DNA of 64,000 bases, taken from positions 186,001 to 250,000 of the forward strand of contig NZ_SMKW01000001.1 in NCBI RefSeq assembly GCF_004348985.1, written 5' to 3'. Both the position numbers and the translations under genes were made by a program. The stretch comes from Saccharopolyspora elongata. GTDB lineage: Bacteria > Actinomycetota > Actinomycetes > Mycobacteriales > Pseudonocardiaceae. A model generated the notes under the pieces. The model saw only the letters and a list, made by a program, of their open reading frames with translations, ran no database searches and was not told the DNA's origin. This document shows, one piece after another, positions 50,839-64,000 of this stretch; the stretch's first letter is position 1, and the number at the start of each line of letters is the position of its first letter.

Positions 50839-51600
50839 GTGAACATGTCGACAAATCGATTCGCGGTTCGATCCGCGGCGCTGACCGCTGCTTGCGGGAT
50901 TGTTGCGCTAATTGGCGCAGGCACGGCGTCCGCGCACGTTTCCGCACAGCCCGGCGAGGCGGCCAAGGGTGGCTACGCCAAGGTCGCGTTCCGGGTCCCG
51001 AACGAGCGGCCGAACGCCGGAACCGTGCAGGTCAAGGTGAACCTGCCGGAGCAGTACCCGCTGAGCTCGGTGCGCACCAAGCCGATGCCGGGCTGGACCG
51101 TCGAGGTGGAGCGGGTCGCGATCGCGCCGGTCGAGGTGGCGGGCGCGCAGGTCACCGAGACTGTGCGCAGCATCACGTGGACCGCGCAGCCGGGCAACCG
51201 GATCGGGCCGAACGAGTTCAACGAGTTCGAGGCGACGCTCGGCGCCCTGCCGACCAACACCGACGAACTGCTGCTGCCCACCACCCAGACCTACGACAAC
51301 GGCGAGGTCGTGAACTGGGACGCTCCGACGCCGCCGAACGGCGAGGAGCCGGAGCACCCGGCCCCGACGCTCAAGCTGGTCGAGGAGGCCGAGGAGGGGC
51401 ACTCGCACGGCGGGAGCTCGGACGGCCAGGAGGCCGGCGAACAGCCCGCCGTCGCCGGTGACGACACGGCCCGCTGGCTGGGCGGTGCCGGACTCCTGGT
51501 CGGCGCGCTCGGCCTGGGCGTGGGGGCCGGTGCCCTCGCGCGCAGCCGGAACGCCGGACAGGCTGCGAAGCAGCAGGAATCCGAGAAGGACGAGTCGTGA
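50839..51600 (+). CDS. YcnI-family (DUF1775) copper-associated membrane protein
   Basis: A 253-residue exported protein. A signal peptide ends in ASAHVSAQPGE, leaving His at the mature N-terminus as in other YcnI proteins, where it binds Cu(II). The DUF1775 domain includes VAFRVPNERPNAGT and TWTAQPGNRIGPNEF. A spacer with GHSHGG adds extra His. The chain ends in a membrane helix (GGAGLLVGALGLGVGAGAL) and a basic tail. AGGAG precedes the GTG. Its stop overlaps the copC-like start (GTGA). Confidence 0.92.
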   Translation: MNMSTNRFAVRSAALTAACGIVALIGAGTASAHVSAQPGEAAKGGYAKVAFRVPNERPNAGTVQVKVNLPEQYPLSSVRTKPMPGWTVEVERVAIAPVEVAGAQVTETVRSITWTAQPGNRIGPNEFNEFEATLGALPTNTDELLLPTTQTYDNGEVVNWDAPTPPNGEEPEHPAPTLKLVEEAEEGHSHGGSSDGQEAGEQPAVAGDDTARWLGGAGLLVGALGLGVGAGALARSRNAGQAAKQQESEKDES

Positions 51601-54056: not shown

Positions 54057-54168
54057 ACCCGGTCCGGCTGCCGTACCCCCGACCGGCAGCCGGACCATCC
54101 CACCTCGTTCCAACGGGAGTCCCCGGAGTTTCTCGGTTCACGTTTCCGCTGGTCACGTGCCGAAAGCT

Positions 54169-54205
54169 GCGGGCAGGCAGTTCCCCCTCCCCGATGCCTG
54201 CCCGC
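54169..54205. terminator. Hairpin GCGGGCAGGCA/TGCCTGCCCGC
   Basis: Perfect 11-bp stem with a 15-nt C-rich loop, about 110 nt after the small membrane gene and in the convergent gap. Confidence 0.65.
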
Positions 54206-54209
54206 TCCC

Positions 54210-54242
54210 GCGCCCCGCAGCCCGCCCCCGGCTGCGGGGCGC
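54210..54242. terminator. Hairpin GCGCCCCGCAGCC/GGCTGCGGGGCGC
   Basis: Perfect 13-bp stem with a CGCCCCC loop, 4 nt after the previous hairpin. Confidence 0.7.
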
Positions 54243-54275
54243 CTCACATTCCGCCGGGTCACGTCGAGCAGTTGG

Positions 54276-54336
54276 CGGTTTCGCGCGAAACCGGCGATCC
54301 GCCTGCGGGAGCGCGGCGGTTTCGCGCGAAAACGCC
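54276..54336. repeat. Paired palindromes, family B locus 6
   Basis: CGGTTTCGCGCGAAACCG at 54276-54293 and GGCGGTTTCGCGCGAAAACG starting at 54315; centres 41 nt apart. It is the third structure in the convergent gap before the isonitrile-synthase-like gene. Confidence 0.9.
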
Positions 54337-54348
54337 GCCCGTGACCGG

Positions 54349-57009
54349 TCACTTGCTGCGCAGCCGGATGCGGTCGAAGAGCGCCGGGTCGAGCGTCCCG
54401 GCGCGGTCCACGGACCGGGCCGGGACCATGAACCACGGCTGGGCGCTCTCCCGCGCCGCGCGCACCGGCACGAAACCCTGGTCCACCAGCGAAATCGCGT
54501 AGTCGACCGACACCTCGCAGAGGTCGTTGAGCGCGGCCGTGCCGTGCCACGGCATCACCCCGGCGCCGCCGAGCGGGACGAACCGCAGCCGGCCCGCTGC
54601 CGGGCGGATGGACAGGCTCATCCGCACGCAGCCCTCCCGCCACAGCACCGAGTAGTCGAGCTCCTCGTCGACGTGCTTGTTCGCCAGGTAGGTGACCGTT
54701 TCCCGCCACGCCGTCGCCAGCAGGTCGCCGCGCGCCCGGCGGACCTCGGCCGGCACCGCAGGATCGGTCAGGTCGAAGGGATTCGCGTAGATCCGCTGCG
54801 ACCACGCGAACGGATCGCCGCCGGGGCAGGGGATGTCGACGGCCTGCAGCACGGAGCGGAACAGCTCGGCGAACCGCGGCCGCCCAGGCCCGGCCGGGTC
54901 CCGGGCGTCGGCTTCCGCCAGCGCCGCCCGCGGATCGCGGCGGACGTCCAGCCCGGCGAACGCCGTGGCGTACCGGTCGCGGTGCTTCGCCAGCAGCTCC
55001 GGCCGCTGCGTGCGGTCGCCGCACCGCGGATGCGCGTCGGCGGCGTCGTCGAAGTCCTCGACCGCCACCACGTCCCGCAGCCCCGCGCTTTCCACCTGTG
55101 CGACCAGCTCCCGGTGGTAGCCCGCGTAGCGGTCCGGCTCCCGGAACCTGAAGTGGCTGGCATCGGTGAGCGCCCGCACCGCGATGCCCGGCGGGTGGAT
55201 CTGCCGGACGGCCTCGTCGAGCTGCCGCAACCGGATCAGCATGGCCAGCTCGGCGAGGTCGGGCAGCCCGCCGAGCGCCTTCAGCCGGGAGCCGTCCTGC
55301 TTCAGCGACGGCCCCACCACGACGAACGGGATGCGCTCCCCGGCCTCGATCGAGGCGAGCATGTCCCGATCGGCCGCCGCGGGCGGATACGCCGTCCTGG
55401 CCGCGCCGAACGGCTTCGCCGTCACGACCCGCCACACCGCCCGGCAGATCGCCGCCGGATCGGCGCGGGCACCGACCTCGCGGCCGAGCCGCCGTCCGTC
55501 GGCCACCGCGGTCGCGACCAGCGACTCGACGATCCGCGACTGCTCCCCCGCGGTCAGTTCCACGCCGTGCGACCAGATCGTGGGGCGGGTGCTGAGGTCC
55601 CCGATCCGCAGCCTGCTCAGCGACGTCACGTGCGACAGCTGCGGCGCGTCGGCCGAGTGCCCGCGCCCCAACGGGACCGGCTGCGGCAGCGACTCGAACG
55701 TCCTTATCCCGCACGGGCCTTGACCACCACCGTCCACAGTGAACCCGGGCGGGCGCGCGGCCACCACCGAGGCGGCGGGGAACGCCGCCCGCAGCGCTTC
55801 GCGATTGCCGGCCGAGTCGTCGAAGGCGGCGACGAGCTCGTGCTCCGGCATGTCGTGCAGCGCCGCGACCTTCTGCCCCGCGACCGGCCCGTCATCGGTG
55901 GTGCGCAGGTCGAGGTGGCCGAGTCCGTGGCGGCTCAGGACCTCTTCGGTGGCGGCCCGCATCCGGTGGCGGCGACCGGTCAACCAGACGACCCGGGCAC
56001 CGGCCTGTTCCAGATCCCGGACGAATTCCACCAGGCCCGGCGCCGGTTCGTCGGTCAGCAGGGCTTCCCGGTGCCACGCGACGTTCTGGCGGTACTCGGC
56101 GTACAACGCGTCCCAGTCGAGTTCGGGATACCGCGCCGGCAGCCCGTTCGCCGCCAGGAACGGGCGCCAGCCCGGCCGGTACAGCCCGGGCAGCACGTCG
56201 AGCCGCGCCGGGGCGACGAACTCGTCGATGCCGTGCGCTTCGCCCAACCGGCGCAACGCCTCGCCGACCCGGTGCTTCGGGTGCAAGGCGCAGAAGTCGA
56301 GGTCCACGGCGACCAGCGGGCGCGGCAGGCCCGGCTCGTTCCGGCACCGCGCGCTGCGCGACCGGACCAGCCGGACGACCCGGCTGAGGATCTCGTGCTG
56401 CTCCGCCACGACGACGTGCACGAAGCGGAGCCACGGGTGGTCACCGGCGAACGCGGCCGCGGTCGGCTCGGCCAGGTGGCGCAGTTCCTGCGCGATGACG
56501 CGCTCGAAGGCGGCCCGGACCCGGTCCTGCTCGTCGCCGCTGATGAACACGCACGCGGCCGCCAGCTCGTCCAACTGCTCGTCCAGCGCGGTGACGACGC
56601 CCGGCACCCCGGACCGCGCGCGGCGGATCCCGCCGAGCACGATGCGCCCGGTGGCCGTCGCCGCCGAATCCAGCTCGACGCCGAGCTCGCCGGCCGGCAG
56701 GAAACCCCGCGCCAGCAGCCCGCGGAACGTGATCAGCAGCGGCCGGACCACGAACTCGGCGAGGTGCTCCGGCGCCGTCCAGCCCGGCGGCCGGCCGGCC
56801 ACGATCCGCTTCAACCACAGCACATCGCCGGGGAACTCCCAGCGCGCCAACTCACCCAGGGGGATCGCGTTCCGCGCCGCGGACAGCTCTCCCACCGCCC
56901 GGTGCTCGCCGGTCCCGGCCGCCGCCACGCAGTAGAGCCGCAGCAGCGGGTCCTCGTCCAGCAATTCCCCCAGCCGCTCCGACCGGACATCCGGACCGCA
57001 CAAAACCAT
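54349..57009 (-). CDS. Unknown region - HAD phosphatase-like domain - isonitrile-synthase (DIT1/PvcA) fusion
   Basis: A 887-residue protein in three parts. Residues 1-225: unrecognised, helical, with an RPLLITFRGLLARGFLP stretch. About 230-430: HAD-like fold with motif I VAVDLDFCALH, motif II WLTGRRHR, motif III Lys in VAGQKVAALHD, motif IV VAAFDDSAGN. About 505-880: DIT1/PvcA family, with DPAAICRAVWRVV, ERIPFVVVGPSLKQDGSRLK, GGLPDLAELAMLIRLRQLDE, the ALTDASHFR strand and the diagnostic VRMSLSIRP then VMPWHGTAAL. PvcA-type enzymes convert Tyr or Trp plus ribulose-5-phosphate to an isonitrile. Here TDA replaces the usual SDG. The product is unknown. Start: ATG at 57009; the SD is poor and a TTG two codons on has GGAG at good spacing. 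Confidence 0.85.
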   Translation of the reverse strand: MVLCGPDVRSERLGELLDEDPLLRLYCVAAAGTGEHRAVGELSAARNAIPLGELARWEFPGDVLWLKRIVAGRPPGWTAPEHLAEFVVRPLLITFRGLLARGFLPAGELGVELDSAATATGRIVLGGIRRARSGVPGVVTALDEQLDELAAACVFISGDEQDRVRAAFERVIAQELRHLAEPTAAAFAGDHPWLRFVHVVVAEQHEILSRVVRLVRSRSARCRNEPGLPRPLVAVDLDFCALHPKHRVGEALRRLGEAHGIDEFVAPARLDVLPGLYRPGWRPFLAANGLPARYPELDWDALYAEYRQNVAWHREALLTDEPAPGLVEFVRDLEQAGARVVWLTGRRHRMRAATEEVLSRHGLGHLDLRTTDDGPVAGQKVAALHDMPEHELVAAFDDSAGNREALRAAFPAASVVAARPPGFTVDGGGQGPCGIRTFESLPQPVPLGRGHSADAPQLSHVTSLSRLRIGDLSTRPTIWSHGVELTAGEQSRIVESLVATAVADGRRLGREVGARADPAAICRAVWRVVTAKPFGAARTAYPPAAADRDMLASIEAGERIPFVVVGPSLKQDGSRLKALGGLPDLAELAMLIRLRQLDEAVRQIHPPGIAVRALTDASHFRFREPDRYAGYHRELVAQVESAGLRDVVAVEDFDDAADAHPRCGDRTQRPELLAKHRDRYATAFAGLDVRRDPRAALAEADARDPAGPGRPRFAELFRSVLQAVDIPCPGGDPFAWSQRIYANPFDLTDPAVPAEVRRARGDLLATAWRETVTYLANKHVDEELDYSVLWREGCVRMSLSIRPAAGRLRFVPLGGAGVMPWHGTAALNDLCEVSVDYAISLVDQGFVPVRAARESAQPWFMVPARSVDRAGTLDPALFDRIRLRSK

Positions 57010-57309
57010 CTCCAATCCAACAATTCCGGAAAAAACGCACGCACCACGAATTCCCGCTCGCGTGCGCGAGCGGGCAGTGCAAAAATCAGCGATCACGCCC
57101 GAGCGAATTCGCCCGCACTCGAGCAAGAAACACCGGCACCGCAGGCACTACCGGCCCGCGATGCCGAAAAAAGCGACTACTACCAGGGAAAACGTCGAAT
57201 TCGCCCCGACCGAACCGGCCCATGCCGATCGTCGAAGCACCAGTTCAACCGGCGCGTCGGCGCGCAGACACCCGACGGGACCGCCGATGACGCGCCCGTC
57301 GCCGAGTGG
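57010..57309. other. 300-nt leader region before the isonitrile-synthase fusion gene
   Basis: Less GC-rich than its flanks. It contains the 57053-57074 hairpin and a T-run after it on the coding strand, as well as the promoter of the fusion gene. No gene is seen. Confidence 0.5.
57053..57074. terminator. Hairpin in the leader of the isonitrile-synthase fusion gene
   Basis: CCCGCTCGCG and CGCGAGCGGG around TG, a perfect 10-bp stem about 45 nt before the start codon. On the coding strand it is followed after about 16 nt by TTTTTT, so it could act as an attenuator or leader terminator rather than ending the upstream gene. Confidence 0.55.
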
Positions 57310-57612
57310 TCATTCACCATCGGCGAGTTGCACGAGCGGGACGCAGCAGTCGCCTTCCAGCCGCTGCACCGCGATCCGGCCGCAGCGCTCCAGCTCCTGC
57401 CGGGTGATCCAGCCCGCGGCGTAATGGCGGTAGGCCTGGGCCAGCAGGACGAGCTCCGCGAGGTGATCGGCGTGCCGACGCCGGAGGTCTTCGGGCAACC
57501 GGGGCAGCGAACCGGCCTGGCTGTCCACCACTTCGTCGAGCACCTGCGCAGCGCGCAACGCGTGCGCACGGCGCCAACGCGGCATCCGCGGCAAGAACTT
57601 CGCGATCCTCAT
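57310..57612 (-). CDS. Small protein of unknown function (100 aa)
   Basis: A 100-residue basic, Arg-rich, helical protein starting MRIAKFLPRMPRWRRAH; the C-terminal half (LAQAYRHYAAGWITRQELERCGRIAVQRLEG) has a plausible folded look with a pair of cysteines at the end. GACGGG lies 6 nt before the ATG, preferred over a start seven codons earlier. No family is recognised. It lies between the APH-type kinase and the isonitrile-synthase fusion on the same strand. Confidence 0.5.
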   Translation of the reverse strand: MRIAKFLPRMPRWRRAHALRAAQVLDEVVDSQAGSLPRLPEDLRRRHADHLAELVLLAQAYRHYAAGWITRQELERCGRIAVQRLEGDCCVPLVQLADGE

Positions 57613-57756
57613 CGACAGCCCGTCCCGTAGCAACGCACCGATGCAGCAGTTCGCCCGTATGGTTTACCCCTTCCGCCGGACGCTCGTCAGCAGAAATTGC
57701 CCAACGAACGCGGCGATCGACCCAACATCGCCCGTTCGGCCTAGCAATCGACCGGA

Positions 57757-58668
57757 TCAGCTGTACGGCACCCATTGCGTGAAGAGATCTCCGTCCCTGA
57801 TCGTGCGCAGCCGCTGGTGCAGTTGCTCGCGAACCCCGGGATTGCTGCGCAGGATCGGGAGCACCCCGGTGGTGATCTTCAGCTCGCGCAGTTCGCGCAG
57901 CACGGCAAAGCCGTCCCAGCGCGTGATGTCGAAGCCGTAGGCCCTGGCCAGGTCGTCGTGCCAGCCCGGCGGGTGCCCCATCCGCAGCCGCCCCACCGCG
58001 ATCGGCGTCAGATCCCACTCCGGCGGGCCCATGCACAGCGAATCCAGGTCGCACAGCAGCGGCCCGTCCGCGCCGCCGATCACGTTGCCGAGGTGCGCGT
58101 CCGCGTGGATGACGCTGCGCGCCAGCGGGAACCGCAGCCCCGCCAGGCGCTCTTCCAACACGTCGCAGCGCTGCGCGAGAAACCGGTGATCGGCCGGATC
58201 GATGTCCACCGCGTCGGTCAGCCGACGACGGATATCCGCCATCGGCTGCCAGTCCAGGAACGTCGGGGACGGCGGCTTCGAGTGCATCTGGCGCAACAGC
58301 TCGCCGAGGTCGGCGCCGCCGGGCATCGGCCCGGTCTCGGGCACGTACTCCCAGAAGGTCGCCAGGTGTTCGCCCACCTGGACCGGCTGCTCAAGTCCCG
58401 GCAGCAGGCGCACGGCGGGAACCCCGTGCGCGGCCAGCCAGCGCGCGGCCTCCACGGCGTTGAAGGCTCGATAGGTGAACGACGGGGAAAGCACTACGCG
58501 GACGACCACGCGCTGGTCCCGAAGCAGGAAAACCCCGTTGTTGACGATTCGGAGCAATCGCGCGCCGGTCGGGTCGAGGCCGACGGCGGCGCAGATCTCG
58601 GTCAGTGCCAGCTCCAGCTCCGGCGGGATGCACCGACCCTGTTCCAGTGGTTGTGTCTTCATGCTCAT
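57757..58668 (-). CDS. Aminoglycoside-phosphotransferase (APH) family kinase
   Basis: A 303-residue small-molecule kinase with the APH/ChoK fold: a lobe with RIVNNGVFLLRDQRVVVRV, the catalytic loop VIHADAHLGNVI (Asp and Asn) and the metal Asp in LLCDLDSLCMGPPEWDL. These enzymes phosphorylate aminoglycosides, macrolides, choline or cell metabolites; many genomic copies are not resistance genes. It begins 40 nt after the XRE-TPR regulator and is likely co-transcribed with it. Whether it modifies the product of the nearby isonitrile-synthase homologues is unknown. Confidence 0.85.
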   Translation of the reverse strand: MSMKTQPLEQGRCIPPELELALTEICAAVGLDPTGARLLRIVNNGVFLLRDQRVVVRVVLSPSFTYRAFNAVEAARWLAAHGVPAVRLLPGLEQPVQVGEHLATFWEYVPETGPMPGGADLGELLRQMHSKPPSPTFLDWQPMADIRRRLTDAVDIDPADHRFLAQRCDVLEERLAGLRFPLARSVIHADAHLGNVIGGADGPLLCDLDSLCMGPPEWDLTPIAVGRLRMGHPPGWHDDLARAYGFDITRWDGFAVLRELRELKITTGVLPILRSNPGVREQLHQRLRTIRDGDLFTQWVPYS

Positions 58669-58708: not shown

Positions 58709-60079
58709 TCACACCCGGCGGAACCGCCGGACGGCCTCGAACAGGTCGCGGACGTCGGAGTTCATCCGGTGCTTGCTCGCTTCGAGCTCCAGCGGCTTGA
58801 GCCGGTCGGCGACGCGCTGGGACTTGACCCGCTCGCCGTGCTCCAGCGCCCGCCGTCCGACCTTGACGCCCTCCTGCAGGTCGCCGGCCCGGATGTGGTT
58901 GGTGGCCTGCAGGCTCAGGCCGAAAACGTGGGTGCGCGCCATGTCCGCGCCGTAGGCCTCGTTGCACTTGATGGTCTCGGCGACGGCTATCGACGCGTGC
59001 TTCTTGGGGTCGAACACCGACAGCGCGTCGTGCGCGGAGCCGATCATGCCGTGCAGGTCGTTCTCGGTGAAGAAGCGCACCCAGTCGGGCGCCTCGTCGG
59101 CGCGGGCGCGGGCGAACTCGTCCTTGGTGCGGCCGACCATCTTCTGCACCTGGTCCGGCTTGTTCAGCATGCCGTAGGCCCAGGCCTCGTTGGCGCACAG
59201 CACGGCCACGGTCAGCGCGGAACCGGAGTCCTGCGCGGCGATCTGGCCAAGCTGGAACAGCTTCAGCGCCTCGTTGGGCTCCTCGTAGTGCAGGTAGACG
59301 CGGCCCATCCGGTACAGCACGCTGGCCACCAGGCCGTCGTCCTCGGCCTGCTTCGCGAACTCCAGCGCCTTGCCGAAGTGGCCGCGGGCGGGGTCGAGCA
59401 GGCCCACGTCGAACGAGGTCCAGCCGGCCAGGCTGTGCATGTCCGCCAGCGCCACGAAGAGCTGCTTGCGCACGGGTTCGGCGGCGCTGGACTCGAGCAG
59501 CTGCTGCGCCCAGGACAGCTGGGCCACCACGGCGTCCCGGCAGGTTCCGCCGCCGTAGCGGTAGTCGAGGTCGCGCAAGGCCTTGGTGGCGGCGTGGATC
59601 TGCTGCACGTCGGTCATGCCGATCCGGGTCGGCGCCGGGGTCTGGGCGTTGGCCGGCAACCAGGAACTGGTTTCGGTGCCGAAGACCGCGGCGCCCATCG
59701 TCACCGCCGCGGCGTGGGACAGGAACTTCCTGCGCTTCACCGACTCGTCCTCCTCAGCGTCGGGGGCGTTGGTCGCCTTCGCGACCCGCATCGCGGTCGC
59801 CCCGTCGTACGCGAGGCCCATGTAGCCCCGCGGGATACCCAGCCCGTCTGCGATCCGGGCGAGCACGTCATAAGCCATGACCTGCCGCCCCTTGAGGATC
59901 TCGGACACCTCGGATTGCGACTGCCCCGTCGAGGCTGCAATCTGTCGCTGCGAAACGCCGTGCCGGCGAAGCTGCCGGTAGATCTCACTGACGTCCCGCC
60001 GGGCCAGTGCATCCCGCATTTCCCGCTCGTTCCAAACGTCGGGTGTAACGGGAGAGCCGCCAGAACCGATGATGTTCAT
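58709..60079 (-). CDS. XRE regulator with a TPR-like C-terminal array
   Basis: A 456-residue regulator: an N-terminal helix-turn-helix (YRQLRRHGVSQRQIAASTGQSQSEVSEILKG), a short hydrophobic stretch with a twin-Arg-like RRKFLSHAAAVTMGAAVFG, then about 280 residues of helical pairs (LDPARGHFGKALEFAKQAED, SVLYRMGRVYLHYEEP, LKLFQLGQIA) typical of TPR repeats. This group is common in actinomycetes and often sits beside kinases or biosynthetic genes. The SD GGGGGT precedes the ATG by 4 nt. Two conserved small genes diverge from it. Confidence 0.88.
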   Translation of the reverse strand: MNIIGSGGSPVTPDVWNEREMRDALARRDVSEIYRQLRRHGVSQRQIAASTGQSQSEVSEILKGRQVMAYDVLARIADGLGIPRGYMGLAYDGATAMRVAKATNAPDAEEDESVKRRKFLSHAAAVTMGAAVFGTETSSWLPANAQTPAPTRIGMTDVQQIHAATKALRDLDYRYGGGTCRDAVVAQLSWAQQLLESSAAEPVRKQLFVALADMHSLAGWTSFDVGLLDPARGHFGKALEFAKQAEDDGLVASVLYRMGRVYLHYEEPNEALKLFQLGQIAAQDSGSALTVAVLCANEAWAYGMLNKPDQVQKMVGRTKDEFARARADEAPDWVRFFTENDLHGMIGSAHDALSVFDPKKHASIAVAETIKCNEAYGADMARTHVFGLSLQATNHIRAGDLQEGVKVGRRALEHGERVKSQRVADRLKPLELEASKHRMNSDVRDLFEAVRRFRRV

Positions 60080-61704: not shown

Positions 61705-62100
61705 TCAGCGGGCGAGAGCGATCGCGTCGATCTCGATCTGCCAGTCCGGTCGGGCCAGCGAGGACACTTCCAGCAGCGTGTCGGCGGGGAACGGCTCGGC
61801 GAGGAATTCTTCGCGCAGCTCGATGACCGCCGGCAGGTTCGCGGCCATGTCCCGGACGAGGATGGTCACCTTAACGACGTCGGCGAGGGTGGCCCCGGCC
61901 GCGGCGAGCACCCGCTCGATGTTGGCGAACGCCTGCCTGCCCTGGGTCTTGAAGTCATCGCCGACGGTGCGGCCGTTTTCGTCGATGCCCGCCTGGCCGG
62001 AGACGTGGATGAACCCACCGGCCTTGATCGCCTGCGAGATCCGGTACGGCTCGTACCAGTCGGGAACAGTGGCGATGCGCTCGATGTCGGTGGCGGTCAT
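61705..62100 (-). CDS. RidA-family protein
   Basis: A 131-residue RidA/YjgF enamine/imine deaminase-like protein. The family motifs SQAIKAGGFIHVSGQAGID and ALTANIE-like FANIERVLAAAGATLADVVKVTI, with the C-terminal WQIEIDAIAL, are present. The usual catalytic Arg before VE.. is not clear: the last strand reads LARPDWQIEIDAI, which has Asp-Trp where many RidA have Val-Glu, so deaminase activity is uncertain. GGAGG precedes the ATG by 6 nt. It lies upstream of the decayed OYE gene and divergent from the MarR regulator. Confidence 0.9.
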   Translation of the reverse strand: MTATDIERIATVPDWYEPYRISQAIKAGGFIHVSGQAGIDENGRTVGDDFKTQGRQAFANIERVLAAAGATLADVVKVTILVRDMAANLPAVIELREEFLAEPFPADTLLEVSSLARPDWQIEIDAIALAR

Positions 62101-62135
62101 GGCCGTCCTCCAAGTTTCATGCCCAGTATTTGTAT

Positions 62136-62164
62136 GTACATGCACATCTTGAGCATTCATGTAC
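62136..62164. promoter_or_regulatory. Dyad GTACATG-N15-CATGTAC, candidate MarR operator
   Basis: A 7-bp dyad in an AT-rich region between RidA and MarR genes, with further overlapping half-sites TGTATGTACATGCA and TCATGTAC. It is a likely binding site for the divergent MarR protein controlling both directions. Confidence 0.55.
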
Positions 62165-62204
62165 TTTGATGTCAACCACGACCACCGCGACACCAGGAGA
62201 CCCG

Positions 62205-62791: not shown

Positions 62792-64000
62792 CTACTTCCG
62801 GCGGAGGCGGGCCCGAGCCGCGAAGTCCGGGTCGAGCCGGATCCCCGGCGGGGTCCGCGATCCCCTCGGGGCCGGGACCGCCGCACCGATCGCGCCCGTC
62901 AGGTGGGTTCGCTGGGACGGGACCATCAGCCACGGCTGGCGGGGGCCGAGCAGCGGCGAGTACACCGGCACGAAGCCCTGGTCCAGCAGCGAGATCGCGA
63001 AGTCCACCGCCACGTTGCCGCGGTCGTCGAGCACCCCGGTGCCCTGCCAGGGCAGCAGGCCGGAGCCGCCGAGGTAGGTGAACCCGAGGCAGCCCTTGCG
63101 GACCGCGCTGAGCGTCAGCCGCACCCGGTTCGGGAACATCCGCTCGTAGCCGAACTCCTCGTCGACCTGCATCGTCGCCATGTAGCGGAGCACCGTGTGC
63201 CAAGCCCGGCGCAGCACCGCGCAGCGCGCCTGGCGCACCTCGGCCGACACGGTCTGGTCGGTCACGTTGTAGATGTCCGCGTAGACCGCCGTGGACCACT
63301 CCAGCCGGTCCGTGCCCGCGGGCACCACGACCGGCACCGAATACACCAGAGACATCAGGATTTCCCGGAACAGCCCGATGACGTGCGGCGCGAACTCGCC
63401 CATCTCGGCGGTGCGCAGGTGCACGAGCTCCAGGGTCCGCAGCGGGTTGTCGGTGATGTCGAAGGACCGCAGCGACTCCGCGAGCAACCGGCGGTAGCGG
63501 GCTACCCGCGACGCGTGCTCGGCCTTCAGCCCGGGTAAGCCGAGCCGCTGCTCGGCGACCGCGTCGATCTCCTCGACGCTGGTCCGGTCGCCGATGCCGA
63601 CCAGGTCGACGTATTCGCGCAGCTTCTTCTGGTACGCGTCGGTGATCGCGTGCGGGCGGCTCCGGAAGTGCCTGCCGTCGGTGAGGATGTTGAAGTGCAG
63701 GCCGGGCCGGTGCACCGCGCTGACCGCCTGTTGGAGCTCCCGAAGCCGCGCCATGGCACCGAGTTCGGCGAAGTCCGGCAGCGGGCCGCCGGCCTTGAGC
63801 CGGTTCAGGCACTGCTTGACCGGGAAGCCGAGCAGCACCACCTCGATGGGCTCGCCGCGCCGCACGAACGGTTCGGCGTCGCGCCGCAGGTCGGCGGGTT
63901 GGTAGTTGGCGCGAGAGCCCTTGATGAACTGCTTGCGGGTGAACACGTGGTGCAGCGCCGCTAGCACCTGCTCGGGTTCGCTGCGCTCGTCGATGCCGAA
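62792..64000 (-). CDS. Isonitrile-synthase (DIT1/PvcA) family protein, 5' end outside the window
   Basis: At least 403 residues, open to the right edge, so the N-terminus (and any HAD or N-terminal region) is not seen. The DIT1/PvcA domain is clear: IEVVLLGFPVKQCLNRLK, GGPLPDFAELGAMARLREL, LHFNILTDGRHFR, and the C-terminal VRLTLSAVRKGCLGF with LLPWQGTGVL, where Gln replaces the usual His in PWHG. It shares its C-terminal region (LLDQGFVPVYSPLLG, QPWLMVPSQ) with the fusion protein at 54349-57009, so the two are paralogues. It keeps TDG where the first has TDA. Confidence 0.85.
   Translation of the reverse strand, partial: FGIDERSEPEQVLAALHHVFTRKQFIKGSRANYQPADLRRDAEPFVRRGEPIEVVLLGFPVKQCLNRLKAGGPLPDFAELGAMARLRELQQAVSAVHRPGLHFNILTDGRHFRSRPHAITDAYQKKLREYVDLVGIGDRTSVEEIDAVAEQRLGLPGLKAEHASRVARYRRLLAESLRSFDITDNPLRTLELVHLRTAEMGEFAPHVIGLFREILMSLVYSVPVVVPAGTDRLEWSTAVYADIYNVTDQTVSAEVRQARCAVLRRAWHTVLRYMATMQVDEEFGYERMFPNRVRLTLSAVRKGCLGFTYLGGSGLLPWQGTGVLDDRGNVAVDFAISLLDQGFVPVYSPLLGPRQPWLMVPSQRTHLTGAIGAAVPAPRGSRTPPGIRLDPDFAARARLRRK

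Follow-up and report, generated by a model that had tools for sequence, protein, structure and literature searches.

The window analysed here, a stretch of 64,000 nucleotides from Saccharopolyspora elongata, encodes a three-part protein (hereinafter protein A) that combines an N-terminal helical region, a HAD domain and a C-terminal domain of the DIT1/PvcA fold in a single polypeptide. We tentatively favor, at somewhat short of an even chance, the explanation that A is a two-enzyme fusion belonging to a distinct DIT1/PvcA branch, in which the HAD phosphatase and the PvcA-fold domain would act on a sugar phosphate plus some amine, not Tyr or Trp in free form, to yield a product that is not an isonitrile. 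The parts are known; their combination, the lineage-wide branch to which they belong and the contrast between A and a sister protein encoded nearby (protein B) appear to be new.

The gene for A lies on the minus strand (54349..57009) and codes for 886 residues from an ATG at 57009. An earlier reading made from the sequence only had described an 887-residue frame at these positions without stating the strand; the frame is indeed present, its 887 codons comprising 886 residues and the stop. It remains open for 39 codons further upstream, up to a TTG at 57126, and for the nearer half of the matched proteins homology to A starts no more than about 15 residues from the ATG at 57009. A long plus-strand frame (54157-57630) overlaps the same DNA and is presumably a shadow frame arising from the high GC content. 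Estimates of dN/dS from three pairs point to purifying selection on the whole frame (0.23-0.38) as well as on the HAD domain (0.16-0.35) and the DIT1 part (0.21-0.32) taken alone; weaker constraint is seen in single pairs for the N-terminal region (0.79) and the linker (up to 0.71). The ortholog in one genome of the genus (G008) is 94% identical. As A is found in 20 of the 22 genomes of the genus and nonsynonymous change is held down, a frameshift or an assembly error joining separate genes is excluded and the fusion is shared by relatives; hence, the true three-part fusion that the sequence-only reading had proposed is borne out.

A predicted structural model of A (mean pLDDT 88.6, pTM 0.88) shows confident PvcA-like and HAD folds, so that the structure prediction recommended in the earlier reading agrees with it. 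Residues 1-228 (56326..57009, minus strand) form in this model the helical region with a short beta section, which aligns with residues ~203-440 of B. The HAD domain spans approximately residues 229-430 (55720..56325, minus strand) and is supported by Pfam, the model, Foldseek and the motif residues D236, D238, T344, K380, D397 and D398. The DIT1/PvcA-fold domain, delineated by Foldseek and alignment, occupies approximately residues 526-886 (54352..55434, minus strand). In Foldseek searches the best matches of the model are PIsnA/PvcA structures (9dhm_B, E 4.3e-9; 3e59, E 8e-9; 9dh4; the group as a whole ranging from 4e-9 to 7e-8), followed by HAD phosphatases (3sd7, 2ah5, 2nyv and acid phosphatases) at E-values of 2.5e-4 and above. 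The TM-scores against the PvcA group, normalized by target length, are moderate (0.57-0.62), with 14-16% identity in the structural match, and a profile search against the PDB recovers a PvcA-fold match at E 2.2e-6. By predicted fold, the C-terminal part of A can thus be placed in the DIT1/PvcA superfamily.

The family profiles are less generous. The Pfam DIT1_PvcA model (PF05141) matches A with 25.9 bits against a cut-off of 26.4, covering 105 of its 273 positions (28.2 bits in a six-frame search), and B with 59.1 bits over 136 positions; a canonical relative (L122) scores 250 bits over positions 1-262. No NCBIfam match to A was obtained at E<=0.1, and the cut-off of 600 bits for the Tyr/Trp isonitrile synthase family NF045653 is reached neither by A nor by B (24.6 bits). 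The earlier description of a 'full DIT1/PvcA pattern' was therefore too strong, although the fold that it implied is recovered by Foldseek.

The N-terminal region (residues 1-228) has no convincing sequence relative in the PDB, the best profile match (E 0.11) being among those attributable to chance. By eye it had suggested a relic of the IucA/IucC (NIS, FhuF) synthetases, an idea that we rejected: hhalign gave P 0.06-0.10 in the expected register and a probability under 1%, in a comparison whose alignment held 10 of 16 loci, the other six lacking the pattern used to pick the frame. While six unrelated families scored 10.9-17.2 against 22.4, the reversed NIS alignment reached 21.1 (P 0.093), and given the closeness of this control we do not claim a NIS relationship.

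B is encoded approximately 6 kb upstream of A on the same strand. Its gene (62792-66217, minus strand; L004:13792-17217:-) codes for 1141 residues with the same N-region/HAD/DIT1 layout and runs past the end of the window, within which only residues 740-1141 with the DIT1 domain are found (62792..64000, minus strand; identified by Pfam, alignment and the model). With most of B outside the window, neither B nor its contrast with A figures in the sequence-only reading. The two proteins are 36% identical over 913 aligned columns that span part of the N-terminal region, the HAD and the DIT1 domains, and the source genome has no DIT1_PvcA match besides these two. The model of B (pLDDT 79.5) likewise has PvcA/PIsnA as its best structural matches and HAD proteins next, and its dN/dS values are 0.19-0.27 in three pairs. 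The B protein of the source genome lacks the stretch bearing HP-x-HPGGT (L004 ~16470, residues 247-251) that the other 18 B proteins of the alignment carry.

To compare the active sites we aligned 47 proteins, namely 15 A-type proteins, out of 20 detected, together with 32 fetched B-type proteins; one locus cut by a contig end (L112), one with its frame broken over two ORFs (L117) and five short forms were left out of the motif counts. In L117 the B-like match is split across two overlapping frames, with the DIT1 part apart from the N-terminal region. A HAD domain was counted as complete if it had all six residues of motifs I-IV (D-x-D, T/S, K, D-D). All six (DDTKDD) are kept in every one of the 15 A proteins, including the DLDFC, TGRR, QK and FDD motifs of the source protein that had been recognized earlier, and on these motifs A would qualify as a HAD phosphatase. 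It shares the fold and the six residues with phosphatases such as 3sd7, 2ah5 and 2nyv and the class B/C acid phosphatases 1z88 and 2i33, but differs from them in the placement of its HAD domain between two other domains and in having Cys four residues downstream of the nucleophile (DLDFC), in place of the usual Thr or Val.

Within the PvcA-fold domain A keeps K570, K577, D584, E587, D616, H619, Y631, R796 and W821 in 15/15 proteins. The canonical D-G is replaced throughout these by D-[A/P]-[S/A/T], preceded by T or A (D616-A617 in the source protein), and A thus lacks the S-D-G that serves as a criterion of the Tyr/Trp isonitrile synthases. The glycine in question occurs in 94% of the canonical set, and the B proteins and short forms compared with that set all have it. 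B, for its part, retains the complete DIT1 core (K, K, D, E, D-G, H, Y, R, W) in 32/32 proteins, the residue before D-G being T (once S) among 19 of them. The (VRLSI)HPQP, K-R and GRPSH signatures, each residue of which is conserved in 88-100% of 17 canonical-like relatives, are absent from both A and B save for single shared letters, as is the E-D pair of the canonical set. PWHG and TDA occur in the source protein as described earlier; the His of PWHG is kept in 11/15 A but in only 4/32 B proteins, with Gln instead in the rows inspected. Accordingly, the absence of DIT1 active-site residues, which the sequence-only reading had regarded as telling against itself, is realized in part: the PvcA fold is predicted while several canonical residues are missing. 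The 17 canonical relatives are uncharacterized homologs (L139 was left out), two of which, the unusual L125 and the 664-residue L122, were scanned with Pfam. The former (L125:953-2194, plus strand) is a DIT1 protein of 413 residues with SES for SDG, a PWHG motif and a very long branch, and represents another divergent group.

The HAD domain of B has a different history. All six motif residues are found in 17/32 proteins, or in 18 if one motif IV acid suffices (L108), and the losses map to no fewer than six distinct positions on the tree (L030/L031 with L033, L041, L043, L044, L109/L113/L114 and L115/L116). In L044, L115 and L116 over half of the HAD stretch is gone, leaving 95-111 residues as against ~190-240 in the others. 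With the DIT1 core invariant and the HAD residues complete in only about half of its representatives, B does not need the phosphatase; its tolerance of HAD loss argues against an obligate HAD-DIT1 coupling, and the earlier proposal that the two domains work together is to that extent unsupported. L041 encodes a B protein that has lost four of its six HAD motif residues; its assembly yielded no A-type match, although the contig breaks off inside the kinase gene or shortly beyond it.

In a maximum-likelihood tree of 26 B, 15 A, 5 short-form and 17 canonical sequences, A, B and the short forms make up one group, which a long branch (100/99; length 1.88 plus 0.37) sets apart from the canonical proteins. 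The A proteins constitute a single clade (100/100) outside the Saccharopolyspora B clade, and are joined weakly (89/75) to two proteins of another genus. This position outside the main B clade led us to reject an origin of A as a recent tandem duplicate of the Saccharopolyspora B, and implies that both copies are old. Across the 22 genomes of the genus, source included, 20 have both A and B, one carries B without A, and one lacks the two; only a single genome among them has a full-length DIT1_PvcA gene of the canonical kind (G005:C5:144471-145205, 261 bits). In the wider GTDB family, 77 of 297 genomes, from 19 of 46 genera, have a match to the B profile at E<=1e-8, a count that includes single-domain canonical relatives. 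A search of 396 genomes across the phylum yielded, besides the source genome, three matches only, in open frames of 337-449 residues. The named carriers of B-like proteins (26 loci) are Saccharopolyspora, Halopolyspora, Actinopolyspora, Halosaccharopolyspora and Actinoalloteichus; our family counts follow GTDB, whereas NCBI taxonomy places Saccharopolyspora in Pseudonocardiaceae and Actinopolyspora in its own family. The short forms (five loci) are proteins of ~500-615 residues, which in L045, L120 and L121 lie beside the kinase gene with c6 (see below) following, in L045 with another gene between; in those of L045 and L120 the Pfam scan found no HAD domain.

Three genes occupy the space next to A on the minus strand: c6 (57310..57633), coding for a 107-residue protein with no Pfam or NCBIfam match that recurs close to the kinase across the compared loci; c1 (57757..58668), an APH-fold kinase with H-x-D-x4-N and D-L-D motifs; and, directly upstream of the kinase, c2 (58709..60079), an NsdA-family HTH-TPR regulator. 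The order B - c2 - c1 - c6 - A recurs in most of the fetched loci of the genus, and in 20 genomes the A and B genes share a strand, their starts lying ~7-11 kb from each other. We considered whether the kinase and the regulator might be dedicated members of a biosynthetic operon and rejected this, since the kinase is widespread in the family and not specific to A or B: it has a match at E<=1e-50 in 247/297 genomes (~25 of them weaker than 1e-72 and possibly paralogs), against 77/297 for the B profile. The regulator was seen beside the kinase in the fetched loci. Of 10 genomes checked, which represent six genera, 9 have A or B at a distance of ~36-90 kb from dnaA; the exception (G064) carries its B-like gene on a contig other than that of dnaA, and its kinase, ~42 kb from dnaA, has no B-like gene beside it. 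The wide presence of the kinase and the proximity to dnaA make the neighborhood look like a gene order inherited near the origin rather than a natural-product gene cluster.

Other neighbors with a family match in the source genome are a TetR regulator, DUF1775, HTH-DUF5753, RidA, BCCT and glycine-betaine transporters, while those scanned in G006 include an alanine-racemase-like protein and a D-arabinono-1,4-lactone oxidase. The RidA-family (L-PSP) gene (61705-62193, minus strand) sits between B and the regulator and, among 21 loci, is found only in the source genome and G008. Downstream of A is the DUF1775 gene (50839-51600, plus strand), whose product we take to be of the copper-binding type. 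Isocyanides are linked to copper in a part of PMC10153163; the association here is probably due to synteny, since a DUF1775 homolog also lies near the corresponding place in loci without A (L042, L043).

What might these proteins do? Under our preferred explanation the HAD domain of A would be a working phosphatase, as the retention of all six motif residues suggests. The PvcA-fold domain keeps the core lysines, acids, Tyr and Arg but not several marker residues of the Tyr/Trp isonitrile synthases; it would most likely still bind a sugar phosphate together with some amine that is not free Tyr or Trp, and its product may be, for example, an N-formyl or a Schiff-base-derived adduct. The HAD domain might then strip the phosphate from the sugar fragment or from the product. 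B would be a sister protein with a constant PvcA-fold site and an optional phosphatase, and A may cooperate with it. The suggestion in the sequence-only reading that the change of SDG to TDA signals different chemistry fits with this, altered chemistry being likely; its expectation of an isonitrile fares worse with the HPQP, K-R and GRPSH signatures missing, and an isonitrile appears to be an unlikely product of A on the basis of its residues.

A somewhat doubtful but serious alternative is a division of labor in Saccharopolyspora, in which the DIT1-type reaction falls to B and the phosphatase step to A, the PvcA-fold domain of A being a pseudoenzyme that docks to B as a heterodimer. The replacement of the D-G glycine by Ala or Pro in 15/15 A proteins indeed implies that this site may be dead, and the reciprocal pattern (six HAD residues in 15/15 A but 17/32 B; D-G in 0/15 A, DIT1 core in 32/32 B) speaks for it, as does the closeness of the two genes on a shared strand in 20 genomes (~7-11 kb between starts). 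Nevertheless, the decay of the HAD domain in B is not tied to A, the six residues being retained in 9/15 B proteins where a compared A coexists and in 8/17 of the others, and the PvcA-fold domain of A is itself still under purifying selection. A broader proposal, which we regard as improbable, is as follows: an undescribed DIT1/PvcA branch encoded near the origin in several genera would carry out a core, rather than secondary-metabolite, sugar-phosphate-dependent amine chemistry, and in Saccharopolyspora two old paralogs would share the phosphatase and carbon-transfer duties as a complex.

Proximity to dnaA in 9 of 10 genomes and the widespread kinase mean that synteny alone could keep the locus in place; coupled with the repeated decay of HAD residues in B, this might be taken to indicate a structural or moonlighting protein in which both domains have lost catalysis, held by inheritance near the origin. 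We consider this quite unlikely, as neutral decay would not leave A with invariant HAD residues and B with an invariant DIT1 core across the compared sets. Least likely, and only faintly probable, is the main line of the sequence-only reading, namely an ordinary Tyr/Trp isonitrile synthase with an accessory phosphatase. The PvcA fold, the core residues shared with canonical relatives and PWHG in 11/15 A proteins speak for it, but the H-P-Q-P, K-R and GRPSH signatures are absent, SDG is changed and the Pfam match of A is partial and, at 25.9 bits, just under the cut-off. Moreover, characterized isocyanide clusters are all said to carry tailoring enzymes in the pertinent part of PMC10153163, whereas no PvcB-type oxygenase or P450 was found among the selected neighbors scanned with Pfam, some of which had no match at all.

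Compared with known systems, the C-terminal part of A resembles PvcA, IsnA and PIsnA (PF05141; PDB 3e59, 9dh4, 9dhm) in fold and in having K570, K577, PD..E, D616, Y631, R796 and PW in common with canonical relatives. It departs from them in its fused HAD domain, in the loss of the SDG glycine, in the lack, shared with B, of HPQP, K-R and GRPSH, and in having no oxygenase partner among the scanned neighbors. Yeast Dit1, a member of the superfamily, provides a precedent for a PvcA-like protein that does not make an isocyanide: a section of PMC7345447 reports that PvcA could not replace Dit1 and that the product is most likely N-formyl-tyrosine. Unlike A, Dit1 is a fungal single-domain protein that works with the P450 Dit2. 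The joining of a DIT1 domain to other enzymes also has parallels, the common layouts in the relevant section of PMC5974471 being the single domain, ICS-DOX (with a dioxygenase) and ICS-NRPS; the HAD fusion of A is not among the layouts of that section. Our literature searches, whose coverage excluded most subscription journals, found no HAD-DIT1 fusion.

What is known of the DIT1/PvcA fold is a single unusual reaction, the formation of an isonitrile from ribulose-5-phosphate and Tyr or Trp, and, in yeast, most likely that of N-formyl-tyrosine. The A/B pair, with the full phosphatase motif set in A and the full PvcA-fold core in B, offers a direct test of what else it may do. A lineage-wide group with a different pocket and a fused phosphatase-like domain, encoded near the origin, suggests that the fold has another role in ordinary actinobacterial metabolism.
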